Source: Armatimonadota bacterium (GTDB taxonomy: Bacteria > Armatimonadota > Fimbriimonadia > Fimbriimonadales > Fimbriimonadaceae). Taken from it: a stretch of 64,000 nucleotides of DNA. The stretch is from the NCBI GenBank assembly GCA_037138755.1, contig JBAXHT010000001.1:839805-903804 (forward strand), read 5' to 3'. Below are positions 2,140 through 7,096 of this stretch, piece after piece. The notes beneath the pieces are model-generated. The model ran no database searches and had not been told where the DNA came from. It was given only the letters and a program-made list of their open reading frames with translations. The translations under genes were made by a program, and so were the position numbers. Every line of letters starts with the position of its first letter. Within the stretch, counting starts at the first letter, position 1.

Positions 2140-3744
2140 ATGTCCCTCGTTGCCTCTATATCTTCTGAGTCGGTAGTCGTCGAACCAGGAGCCACCGCAC
2201 CGCTCACTCTTGAAGTTGAGAATCGTGGAGAGGCCACCGAAAGTTTTGAAATCGGTATCGAAGGCATTGACGGAGAGTGGATCGCAATCCCGGTTCCGTC
2301 TGCGGAGCTCAAGCCAGGTGAACGGCAGAGTCTCAAGGTCTTCTTCAAGCCACCTCGTCAAAGCGAGAGCACAGCAGGCAATTTTCCGTTCGTCGCAAAA
2401 GTTCGTTCGCTTGCCACAGGGGATCAGCGTATAGCTCAGGGAATTCTTACGGTCAAACCGTTCCATTCGCTCACCCTGGAACTTACGCCCAAAAAAGGCT
2501 TCGTTACTGCTACAAAGACCCAAAACATCTTTGCCGCGACAGTGATGAACATGGGGAACAGCGAACATACCGTTCAGCTGATGGCGGACGACCCCGAGAA
2601 CTCTTGTACATATGAGTTCGATGATGAGCAGATCACGGTAGGGCCCGGACAACAGCGAGATGTTGACTTCGCCGTTCACCCCAAAAAGGGTTCTCCTCTC
2701 GGCTCCCCTCGGCTCATTGGCTTTGCAGTGACTGGGCGTAGCACAACAACGCCGGGTGTGGTTGCCTCGTCGCAGGCTCAGCTTGAAGTCCGACCATTCA
2801 TTACACCTGCGACGATTATTGTGTTCTTCATCATGTCAATGCTCGCTTTGACAGTCTGGCTCACACAACCCAAAAAACCAGAGGTCATTCTCGACCTCAT
2901 GACTGGACCGACTAAGGTAACCCAGGGCACAAAAGTTGTTGTCCACTGGCAAGCAACGAATGCTTCAGCGGTCAAGCTTGTTGCCGGCGGAAAGCCGATT
3001 GGAGAAAATCTGCCGCCAGAGGGCACTCAAGAAGTCGAAACTCCGCTTCTGGGCAGCCTGACGATTCAGGCAGTTGCTTTCCGCGACAATCGACAGAGTG
3101 AGCCTGCTTCCGTTACCATCATTGTTGAAGCAGCTCCGTTCGTCCCTGAGCCAAAGATTCTTGAATTGAAACCCTCCCAGGACACGATCAACAAAGGTGA
3201 AAAGTTCACGCTCAGCTACAAATTCGACACTGGGGTGGTGAAAGCAAAGCTAGGTCCGGACAACATTGACCTTGATCTGCGACTGAATACGATCCTTATT
3301 GAGCCTGCTAAACTTGGCGAGAACGAGTACACCGTGGTTGCGGAGAACTCGGCTGGCAAGAGCGTCAAGAAGACTTTTAAGGTCCAAATGATCGAGCCGG
3401 TACTGGTGAAAATCGTCAAGTTTGAGATCTCTCCGGAGGAGGTGGAAGAGGGCGGAAAGGTTACGATGAACTGGCAGATTGAAAAGGCTTCAAAGATCGA
3501 GTTTAGCTATACGGGAAGCCAGCCGTACTCTCTGGATTCTTCAGGAACGACGGAGATTCCAGTTGTTGGAAAGACCACGTTTATCCTTAAAGCCACCGAT
3601 GCTAACGGCAAAGTGGTGACGAAGTCAATCACGGTCCGAGTGAAGAAGGCTGCCGAACCGCCTCCAACTGATCCTGATAATGGCGATTTGAGAGGCAATA
3701 CGACTGGTGCGACCACAGCTGGTGGAGGAACGAACGGGCGATGA
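2140..3744 (+). CDS. Membrane protein with Ig-like beta-sandwich domains
   Basis: About 534 residues from the ATG at 2140, chosen because a TACAAT hexamer ends 8 bases before it; an upstream ATG at 2098 would add 14 unlikely residues. The first ~215 residues look like two beta-sandwich domains of the CARDB/NEW3 type. A single membrane segment follows (about residues 223-242, ITPATIIVFFIMSMLALTVW). Three further Ig-like repeats and a Thr/Gly-rich tail complete it. There is no signal peptide although the N-terminal domain is of a kind usually found outside the cell. The 3' end overlaps purH by four bases (ATGA), so the two are translationally coupled. Function unknown; a cell-envelope scaffold is a guess. 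Confidence 0.7.
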   Translation: MSLVASISSESVVVEPGATAPLTLEVENRGEATESFEIGIEGIDGEWIAIPVPSAELKPGERQSLKVFFKPPRQSESTAGNFPFVAKVRSLATGDQRIAQGILTVKPFHSLTLELTPKKGFVTATKTQNIFAATVMNMGNSEHTVQLMADDPENSCTYEFDDEQITVGPGQQRDVDFAVHPKKGSPLGSPRLIGFAVTGRSTTTPGVVASSQAQLEVRPFITPATIIVFFIMSMLALTVWLTQPKKPEVILDLMTGPTKVTQGTKVVVHWQATNASAVKLVAGGKPIGENLPPEGTQEVETPLLGSLTIQAVAFRDNRQSEPASVTIIVEAAPFVPEPKILELKPSQDTINKGEKFTLSYKFDTGVVKAKLGPDNIDLDLRLNTILIEPAKLGENEYTVVAENSAGKSVKKTFKVQMIEPVLVKIVKFEISPEEVEEGGKVTMNWQIEKASKIEFSYTGSQPYSLDSSGTTEIPVVGKTTFILKATDANGKVVTKSITVRVKKAAEPPPTDPDNGDLRGNTTGATTAGGGTNGR

Positions 3745-5273
3745 GAGCACTTCTTTCTGTCACCGACAAGTCAGGAATCGTTGAATTCGCAAGTGGATTG
3801 GCTGAGATAGGTTTTGAGTTGTTGAGCACCGGCGGAACCGCAAAGACACTTCGAGAAGCAGGATTGGCCGTCACAGACGTGAGTCAAGTCACCGGTTTTC
3901 CTGAGATGCTCGAAGGAAGAGTGAAGACGTTGCACCCGATGGTGCACGGTGGTCTGCTTGGAGTTGTTGGAAATCCAGACCACGTCGCCGCTATGAAGGC
4001 GGCCGGAATAGAGCCAATCTCAGTTGTAGCGGTCAATCTTTACCGGTTTGAGGAGACGGTTTCTAAGCCGCATGAGCTTGCCGACGCGATTGAGTCGATT
4101 GACATCGGTGGTCCGGCGATGATCCGAGCCTCGGCGAAGAATCACGCTTCAGTGGCGGTTGTCACCGATCCTGCGGATTACTCGGCTGTGTTGGCGGCCT
4201 TAAAAGACGGCACGATCGGTGGACTTAGACCGAAGCTTGCTGCGCAGGCATTCAGGTTGACCGCGTATTACGACAGTCTGATCTCTCGCTACTTGTTCTC
4301 CACAACTGGGGCCGAGGAGCTTGATCAGGAGTTCTTGGCCGTCGGACTGCGTCGCGTTCAGGGTTTTCGCTACGGAGAGAACCCCCATCAGAGCGGCGCT
4401 CTTTATGCCGATGGCCTAGGACAACCAGGGCTCCCGCAATCGAAGCAGTTGTGGGGCAAGGAGTTGAGCTACAACAACATCAACGACTCGGTGGGAGCCT
4501 GGGAGCTTGTTGGCGACATGCCCGTGAATGCCTGCGCGATCATCAAGCACGGAAACCCATGTGGCGCTGCGACGGGCCGGTCGTTCGGCGAAAGCTACAG
4601 CCTAGCGCGCGCATCCGATCCGATCTCGGCCTTCGGGGGAATAGCCGCATTCAAAGGCGTTGTTGACATCGAAGCGGCTGAGATCATGACCGCTAAAGGC
4701 AATTTCCTTGAAGTCGTTCTAGCCACTTCGTTTACAGAAGAGGCAGTCGAGCTATTCAAGCAGCGCGCTGGTTGGGGGCAAGACGTCCGTTTGCTCGAAG
4801 TAGCTCTCCCTCCAAAGAAGAGTTTCCTGTCAATGAAGGCAATTCGAGGAGGTGCAATCGTTCAGCACAGCGATGAAGACCCTGCTTTGGATTGGAGAAT
4901 CGTCACCAAGAAGGCTCCGACGCCAGCTCAGATGGCGGCGATGAAGTTACAGTGGGCCATTGTGCAACACGTGAAGTCGAATGCGATTGTCGTCGGAAAT
5001 GACTCGCAAATGCTCGGGGTCGGTGCGGGACAGATGAACCGCGTCCAGAGTGTAAGGCTCGCGCTGGACCAGGCTGGAGATGAATCTGTCGGTGCAGTTC
5101 TCGCCAGTGACGCGTTTTTCCCTTTCCCCGATTCAGTCGAAACAGCTGCCGCAGCTGGCATTTCGGCGATTGTTCAGCCGGGGGGTAGCAAGAAGGATCA
5201 AGAAGTGATCGATAAAGCTGATGAGCTCGGAATTGCGATGTGCTTGACAGGAACCCGACACTTTAATCATTAA
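3741..5273 (+). CDS. purH: Bifunctional AICAR formyltransferase / IMP cyclohydrolase
   Basis: Catalyses the last two steps of de novo purine synthesis: formylation of AICAR with 10-formyl-tetrahydrofolate, then ring closure to IMP. It has 510 residues, the usual family length. The N-terminal methylglyoxal-synthase-like cyclohydrolase domain is visible (LLSTGGTAKTLREAG, EGRVKTLHPMVHGG). The transformylase domain follows, with YGENPHQSGALY and the IKHGNPCGAA block that carries the catalytic Lys-His. It starts within the stop codon of the preceding membrane-protein gene. No other purine gene is in the window, so purH is detached from its pathway here. Confidence 0.97.
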   Translation: MRALLSVTDKSGIVEFASGLAEIGFELLSTGGTAKTLREAGLAVTDVSQVTGFPEMLEGRVKTLHPMVHGGLLGVVGNPDHVAAMKAAGIEPISVVAVNLYRFEETVSKPHELADAIESIDIGGPAMIRASAKNHASVAVVTDPADYSAVLAALKDGTIGGLRPKLAAQAFRLTAYYDSLISRYLFSTTGAEELDQEFLAVGLRRVQGFRYGENPHQSGALYADGLGQPGLPQSKQLWGKELSYNNINDSVGAWELVGDMPVNACAIIKHGNPCGAATGRSFGESYSLARASDPISAFGGIAAFKGVVDIEAAEIMTAKGNFLEVVLATSFTEEAVELFKQRAGWGQDVRLLEVALPPKKSFLSMKAIRGGAIVQHSDEDPALDWRIVTKKAPTPAQMAAMKLQWAIVQHVKSNAIVVGNDSQMLGVGAGQMNRVQSVRLALDQAGDESVGAVLASDAFFPFPDSVETAAAAGISAIVQPGGSKKDQEVIDKADELGIAMCLTGTRHFNH

Positions 5274-5342: not shown

Positions 5343-5672
5343 ATGAGCAACACAGGTGCTGGACCGAATCCCCAAACGAACTTGATCATCTCGATCGTTG
5401 CGCCTGTGATTGCGCTCATCGCGATTGCAGTGTTGTATTTCACCAAGCCTACACTCGTTCCGGAGCCCGCGCCAACCGCAGTCAATACGACGACGGCCAA
5501 GCTACCAGATCCAGGAGTCCAACTTGGGAATGCACTACCAGGAGCCGGAGGAGCAGGAGGTTCAGCTGCTTCAGGTGCTGCTGCCGCGGCTGGATTTGGT
5601 GGTCCTGGCGGTGGGGCTCCTAATGGAGGTCGCGGAAAAGCAATGGCGGCGTCCTCTGGCGCAGGAAATTAG
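5343..5672 (+). CDS. Small single-pass membrane protein, Gly/Ala-rich tail
   Basis: 109 residues, family not recognised. One hydrophobic segment (about 14-34, IISIVAPVIALIAIAVLYF) is followed by a Pro-rich linker and a low-complexity Gly/Ala tail. The N-terminus is short and polar, so the tail probably lies outside the membrane. It has its own promoter, a GAAGGA ribosome-binding site and a terminator-like hairpin downstream, which supports a real single-gene unit. Its placement between purH and the remA-mreBCD operon gives no clear functional clue. Confidence 0.6.
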   Translation: MSNTGAGPNPQTNLIISIVAPVIALIAIAVLYFTKPTLVPEPAPTAVNTTTAKLPDPGVQLGNALPGAGGAGGSAASGAAAAAGFGGPGGGAPNGGRGKAMAASSGAGN

Positions 5673-5724
5673 ATTCGAATTTGTTTCGTAAGCAACTGGG
5701 ACGGTAGGTGCTTGCAAATCAAGT

Positions 5725-5760
5725 AAACTCCCTTGGCTAATCTGTCAGGGAGTTTTTTTT
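5725..5760 (+). terminator. Terminator hairpin whose 3' arm is the remA ribosome-binding site
   Basis: AAACTCCCT (5725-5733) pairs with AGGGAGTTT (5747-5755) across a 13-base loop, and a run of eight T (5753-5760) ends at the remA ATG (5761). It has the form of an intrinsic terminator for the upstream gene. AGGGAG in the 3' arm is also the only good Shine-Dalgarno for remA, eight bases before its start. A TAATCT hexamer (5738-5743) lies in the loop and could act as a -10 element producing RNA without the 5' arm. Confidence 0.6.
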
Positions 5761-6042
5761 ATGCCAGCACCAGTTGTCCTAAACGTTGGATTCTACAACT
5801 ATGTGCTCACAGACAAGATCATCGCTATGGTGAGCACGGAGTCAGCTCCGATGCGGAGGATGGTCCAAGGACTTCGCCAGTCGGGAAAAGTGATCGATGC
5901 CACACAGGGAAGGAAGACCAAGTCAGTGGTTTTTACGACCAGCGGTGATGTTGTCCTTTCCGCCATCTCACAAGAGACCTTGGCTCGCCGCTTGACAGAA
6001 ATCGGACACGCTCCGGACGATGCTGAGGAAGCTGAAGAGTAG
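5761..6042 (+). CDS. remA: RemA/DUF370 family regulator
   Basis: 93 residues matching the DUF370 family throughout (NVGFYNYVLTDKIIAMVS, GKVIDATQGRKTKSVVF). In Bacillus subtilis RemA is a ring-forming DNA-binding protein that activates biofilm-matrix and osmoprotection genes. The Arg-rich segment MRRMVQGLRQSGK (about 27-39) and the GRKTKS loop fit DNA contacts. Here it heads a run of closely spaced genes, 7 bases before mreB, so it may be co-expressed with the cell-shape genes. The start codon follows a poly-T tract and uses a ribosome-binding site buried in a hairpin. The target DNA is unknown, and the Bacillus role should not be assumed. Confidence 0.85.
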   Translation: MPAPVVLNVGFYNYVLTDKIIAMVSTESAPMRRMVQGLRQSGKVIDATQGRKTKSVVFTTSGDVVLSAISQETLARRLTEIGHAPDDAEEAEE

Positions 6043-6049
6043 TTAGAAA

Positions 6050-7096
6050 ATGAGTTTGATGCGATCGCTTTTTGGCAGGTTTCACCGAGACATCGGTATT
6101 GACTTAGGAACTGCCAACACCCTGGTGTACGTCGCAGGGCGAGGCATCATCCTTCGTGAGCCAAGTGTCGTCGCGGTCAGTCAGGACGACGGAAAGGTCA
6201 TCAAAGTTGGCGCAGAAGCAAAGCGGATGCTCGGACGAACTCCGGCAAACATTGTCGCAGTCCGTCCTCTCAAGGATGGGGTCATTGCCGACTACGAGCA
6301 CACCGAAGAGATGCTTCGGCACTTCATCGGTTCCGCACTGAGCCGAGGGGCCTTCCGGACAACGGTCGTGGTCGGAATTCCCTCCGGTGTCACCGAAGTT
6401 GAGCGTCGAGCGGTCATAGAGGCAGCTCGTAAAGCTGGCGCCACGGCCGCCTACGTCGTCGAAGAGCCGATGGCGGCGGCGATTGGCGCGGGTCTTCCCG
6501 TGGCTGAGCCGAGTGGTTCTATCATCGTGGACATTGGTGGCGGAACGACGGAAGTCGCAGTTATCTCTTTGGGCGGAATCGTCTCTTCGAAATCGGTTCG
6601 CACTGCCGGCGACGAGCTGGATGAGTCGATAATCAGCTACGTTAGACGAGCGTTCAACCTCGCCATTGGTGATCGAACCGCAGAGCAGGTCAAATTGGAA
6701 ATTGGCTCCGCATTCCCGTTGGAGCAAGAAATGGATATGGTGATCAAAGGTCGCGACCTCGTAACTGGGCTGCCTCGATCCGCGGTTGTTACATCCGAAG
6801 AGATCCGAACCGCCATTGCGGAGCCGATTCGAGAGATTGTCGATGCCATCAAACTCACTTTGGAAGCAACACCTCCCGAACTTGCTGGAGACGCCATGGA
6901 GCGTGGAATCTACTTGGCTGGAGGCGGTGCTCTCCTCCGCGGCCTGGACAAACTCATCTCTCGTGAGACACTGGTTCCGGTACACATCGCGAACGATCCG
7001 CTGAGTTGCGTTGCACTCGGAACTGGAATTATCGTCGAAGAGATGAATGAAAACGCTTTGATTCGCAAAATGCTTGAGAGGTCATCCCAGCCGTAA
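6050..7096 (+). CDS. mreB: Rod shape-determining protein MreB
   Basis: Bacterial actin homologue, 348 residues, full length. The phosphate-1 loop ([11 protein letters not shown], from residue 17), phosphate-2 loop ([13 protein letters not shown]) and adenosine-binding motif ([12 protein letters not shown]) are all present. An N-terminal MRSLFGRF segment could be an amphipathic membrane-binding stretch. It polymerises under the inner membrane and positions the elongasome that inserts new peptidoglycan. It is followed by mreC and mreD in the standard order, which implies a rod-shaped or elongating cell. Confidence 0.97.

Follow-up and report, generated by a model that had tools for sequence, protein, structure and literature searches.

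The window (the whole 64-kb stretch of DNA that was analysed) carries purH, a small ORF, remA, mreB and mreC in this order on one strand, with mreC recognised by its Pfam match (PF04085) after mreB. This DNA belongs to an Armatimonadota genome, and the closest named relatives are Fimbriimonas and Fimbriimonadaceae. The argument below relies on the following features.

3741 to 5273, plus strand: purH (PF01808 and PF02142), a gene of the upstream unit.
5343 to 5672, plus strand: small ORF of 109 aa, the last gene of the unit that would supply any read-through.
5724 to 5729, plus strand: -10 box of remA (TAAACT), which overlaps the 5' arm and is recognised from genome statistics and its conservation before remA.
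5725 to 5733, plus strand: 5' arm of the hairpin, AAACTCCCT, read from the sequence; in relatives, compensatory changes maintain its pairing.
5734 to 5739, plus strand: predicted transcription start region (around G5736), placed by the leaderless -10 spacing.
5734 to 5746, plus strand: hairpin loop of 13 nt, containing TAATCT (5738 to 5743).
5747 to 5755, plus strand: 3' arm, AGGGAGTTT, with the only Shine-Dalgarno (SD) sequence, AGGGAG (5747 to 5752).
5753 to 5760, plus strand: T-run of the intrinsic-terminator kind, doubling as the spacer between SD and ATG.
5761 to 6042, plus strand: remA, RemA-like (PF04025, E 1.7e-29).
6050 to 7096, plus strand: mreB (PF06723), the next gene of the operon.

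The small ORF encodes a single hydrophobic stretch and a Gly-rich tail, and a Pfam search with it gave no match. It lies between purH and remA on the same strand in many Fimbriimonadaceae, the order purH, small ORF, remA, mreB is widespread among relatives, and mreB directly follows remA in nearly all of them. Wherever the upstream purH/small ORF unit of a relative could be identified, it is on the same strand as remA. The remA gene itself is undetectable or a very weak match in several genera of the family with near-complete genomes (g4, g6, g16, g17 and g47) and is otherwise widespread across it.

The two arms form a stem of 9 perfect pairs, 4 of them G-C, and are followed by 8 T, three of which are base-paired to the AAA in the 5' arm. 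This is the form of an intrinsic terminator, and its T-run leads directly into the remA ATG at 5761, with the SD 8 nt upstream of the ATG. The original prediction had described this terminator form, and an SD held only in the 3' arm, and both can be read directly from the sequence. The predicted energy of the hairpin is -16.2 kcal/mol, and a region of 131 nt around it folds better than its own shuffles (z -2.35). A scan with consensus terminators also lists the remA hairpin, in a result that as a whole resembles shuffled sequence (16 found, 15.4 expected). A possible outer pairing of GGUGCUUGC (5706 to 5714) with GCCAGCACC (5763 to 5772), which would also enclose the remA start codon in read-through RNA, was set aside, as it is absent in sister species.

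We sampled 2.0 of the 3.3 Mb of the same genome in stretches (contig C1, loci L144 to L243), with genes called by a simple script. A strict rule of at least 8 pairs, at least 4 G-C and at least 5 T gave 70 structures on both strands of these 2 Mb. In only 3 of the 70 does the T-run end no more than 5 nt from a called start codon, and one of these (at 1012039) has a doubtful TTG start.

The same sample allowed us to identify the -10 box. At the gene starts of the 2 Mb, TANNNT is found 50 times exactly 12 nt before the ATG, against about 8 at most other positions. This peak is the mark of leaderless genes, and it thereby calibrates the distance from the -10 box to the start of the RNA at about 12 nt from the first base of the hexamer. 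The 126 leaderless -10 boxes have TAAACT as their commonest hexamer (21, with 4.8 expected from other TANNNT) and favour a G immediately upstream; no -35 box is visible at the leaderless genes of this genome, and none is recognisable at remA. TAAACT or TACACT is kept before remA in 18 of 19 species of the same genus. The -10 box of remA is the TAAACT at 5724 to 5729. From this position the RNA is predicted to begin at about 5736, beyond the end of the 5' arm at 5733, so that RNA born at this promoter would be made without that arm. The original prediction likewise proposed an internal promoter whose RNA lacks the 5' arm, and this part stands with TAAACT as the promoter. The TAATCT in the loop, which had been proposed as the -10, is present, but the loops of the sister species L002 and L003 lack it, and an RNA started from it at about 5750 would begin inside the SD and cut it. 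A search of the literature, of which our coverage was incomplete, brought up no data on promoters or start sites in Fimbriimonas or its group.

Other places in the sampled genome show related arrangements. Near 6658 of locus L146, on the minus strand (G000:C1:46658), the T-run of a 14-pair terminator ends 2 nt before an ATG, and its 3' arm holds TAACGT at the leaderless -10 distance, which is another overlap of a promoter with a terminator. Near 13614 of L238, on the plus strand (G000:C1:1893614), a terminator abuts a leaderless-type promoter, being followed directly by TATAAT shortly before the ATG. The plan at about 11951 of L145, plus strand (G000:C1:31951), is the same as at remA: GAACTCC, a -10 TAAACT in the loop and GGAGTTTTTT before the ATG of a gene for a glycine/glutamine-rich, secreted-looking protein.

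The location of the promoter bears on whether remA could have a long leader, transcribed from an upstream promoter, in which the hairpin acts as a transcription attenuator. There is a precedent in rimP, where the leader has a terminator hairpin close to the start that may include the ribosome-binding site (PMC2965389). The rimP RNA has a long leader with the terminator inside it and is attenuated, whereas RNA from the remA promoter should not contain the terminator. The conserved -10 lies in the 5' arm, within the loop of the hairpin or just before the 5' arm, so that its RNA would lack most or all of this arm; in the window the only conserved -10 predicts, by sequence alone, a start beyond it. 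No conserved antiterminator is seen, and the loop and the upstream sequence vary. Given these points, we regard an attenuator of this kind as very improbable.

Folding predictions agree with the proposal that RNA read through from upstream hides the SD. In the window, the SD has a predicted unpaired probability of 0.00 in read-through RNA against 0.22 in the promoter-proximal RNA, where it is partly paired with the coding region. For the 11 leaders with the stem that were folded (L001 to L004, L006, L012, L016, L018, L019, L029 and L124), the predicted values are 0.00 to 0.02 in read-through RNA against 0.18 to 0.83 in the shorter RNA, with the highest in L006 (0.83). The gain in SD accessibility in the short RNA is not clearly larger than at other genes of the genome (P 0.09).

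Absence of the stem from relatives had been named beforehand as the observation that would speak against the original prediction, and the pairing is present. We gathered remA leaders from the genomes and contigs of relatives and split each at the predicted start. Over 33 leaders, the native upstream and downstream parts pair better than partners swapped between species (z -6.7), with z -4.8 within the genus, -3.6 for the rest and -6.2 for representatives. The comparison of leaders for covariation that had been suggested was made on 11 leaders anchored on AAACTC...GAG, and compensatory changes were found. Pairs outside the part constrained by the -10 box change on both sides, among C-G, T-A, A-T, G-C and G-T types: stem position 9 is T-A, C-G or A-T, position 10 is G-C, C-G, T-A or A-T, and position 11 is C-G, G-C, T-A or G-T. 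Permutation of the partners gives P 2.4e-4 for the 11 leaders and 0.002 to 0.04 for thinned sets. The shuffle P of single species is modest for many leaders (0.03 to 0.06 for the window).

The register of the pairing is not fixed. In L004, ACTCCTCGGT pairs with ACCGAGGAGT and the -10 box is inside the loop; in L008, CTGTAAGC pairs with GCTTACGG and the arm is just downstream of the -10 box; in L009, L010, L117 and L013 the SD is situated fully or partly in a loop of the hairpin. The loop and the register are thus not conserved, and often neither is the T-run. What is conserved is that the SD region pairs with sequence located upstream of the predicted start or at it. Hairpins that close on the SD are seen repeatedly across Fimbriimonadaceae, with compensatory changes and in different registers. 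This pattern also helps in judging whether the inverted repeat could be a DNA operator, bound by RemA or another repressor, that overlaps the promoter. RemA is a DNA-binding protein and the repeat does overlap the -10 box, but the spacing of the arms varies widely, the arms change with compensation and the registers shift between species, as would be expected if the arms pair in RNA, but not if they are a fixed dyad for a protein. We give a DNA operator hardly any credence. An extension of the effect to the whole genome is not claimed: in the window's genome, native differed from swapped pairing with P 0.035 for 28 genes that had been called crudely, and SD pairing showed no clear trend with the orientation of the neighbouring gene.

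Another reading would be that the hairpin is merely the intrinsic terminator of the purH unit, pushed against remA by genome compaction, and that its overlap with the SD reflects thrift and has no role in translation. The canonical stem and T-run fit this well, no other terminator lies between the small ORF and remA in the window, and other terminators of this genome also abut the promoter of the next gene. It is also in line with this reading that no leader preceded by a stand-alone terminator has a long helix. In seven relatives (L005, L013, L017, L021, L023, L114 and L120) a stand-alone hairpin terminator, in some cases without a clean T-run, separates the small ORF from the promoter. A leader helix of at least 7 pairs is found in 13 of the 22 species without a separate terminator and in 0 of the 7 with one (Fisher P 0.007), an exclusivity that is not significant after phylogenetic correction. 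On a remA-mreB tree the hairpin changes 6 times and the terminator 7 times, never together in one direction, and the sign test is not significant because there are too few independent pairs (3 supported, never in the same direction).

The terminator alone does not account well for the relatives that have lost the T-run. The T-run is present in about half of the relatives that bear the hairpin, being kept in L001, L002, L004, L006, L018, L029 and L124 and lost in L003, L008, L012, L015, L016 and L019. Without it, the SD is still paired in L003, L008, L012, L016 and L019, and in L003 the stem has been stretched to 12 pairs that cover the former T-run. In L012, L016, L019 and L008 no strong separate terminator is seen either, so no insulation is visible in these species apart from hiding of the SD. 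A terminator without a translational role has some plausibility, but we consider it unlikely.

The original prediction had viewed the arrangement as a switch. As a regulated switch, it would set RemA and MreB levels by changing between long (silent) and short (active) RNAs with the condition. The anatomy that speaks for it is the same as for an insulator. No evidence of regulation was seen: there is neither a second regulatory element nor a conserved long leader, Rfam gives nothing above the gathering score in the 64-kb window and thus no known element, and no condition or ligand is suggested. We find a regulated switch highly unlikely, and an insulator against purH read-through fits the pattern better.

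Our preferred reading, which we think is probably correct, is that of a compact insulator. It would terminate read-through from the purH unit or keep it silent, and at the same time allow remA-mreB to be translated; it would be always on and would not sense a signal. Its place is where the purH-small ORF unit gives way to the remA-mreB operon. Polymerases that come from upstream would copy the entire hairpin, and many would stop in the T-run, right ahead of the remA ATG. An RNA that passes the T-run would carry its SD paired in the 3' arm and so, we propose, would not be translated into RemA. Since the -10 TAAACT itself belongs to the 5' arm, the RNA that starts at about 5736 should be without this arm, which would make termination impossible and the SD more accessible.

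By analogy, such an arrangement would work like the late genes of phage T4 and the fold-back inhibition of IS10 and IS200. In fold-back inhibition, RNA that comes from outside the element folds and hides the ribosome-binding site of its gene. The protection of IS10 and IS200 from read-through is credited to Davis 1985 and Beuzon 1999, as they are cited in PMC2965389. The likeness is in the insulation from neighbouring transcription by folding of the incoming RNA; the remA locus differs in being syntenic and housekeeping, not a mobile element, and in that its 5' arm doubles as the -10 box. In T4, the late genes e and soc and the homing endonuclease genes I-TevI, segB and mobE have a hairpin at the ribosome-binding site only on the early read-through RNA (PMC2988022). 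As in T4, the ribosome-binding site of remA is about 8 nt before the AUG and is predicted by folding to be paired in RNA from upstream promoters, and the RNA of the proximal promoter, going by the predicted start, would be too short to form the hairpin. Unlike the T4 genes, remA heads a chromosomal cell-shape operon of a bacterium, has no known early/late programme and is read here from sequence alone; the hairpin of the window also carries a terminator T-run. We did not find the same arrangement at a chromosomal housekeeping operon in the literature, which was incompletely covered.

More tentatively, and as something possible rather than likely, we suggest that this is a vertically inherited, lineage-wide read-through shield of the chromosome. 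In such a shield, the SD of the gene pairs with the -10 box or the sequence flanking it, only RNA born at that promoter is translatable, and over evolution the hairpin and ordinary stand-alone terminators replace each other at the purH/remA boundary. If this is true, promoter DNA transcribed from upstream would serve as the complement of a ribosome-binding site, and bacteria with tightly packed genes could achieve translational insulation of an operon. A device of phages and transposons would then also operate at a conserved housekeeping locus, one for cell shape, and would have a sequence signature by which to look for it elsewhere.
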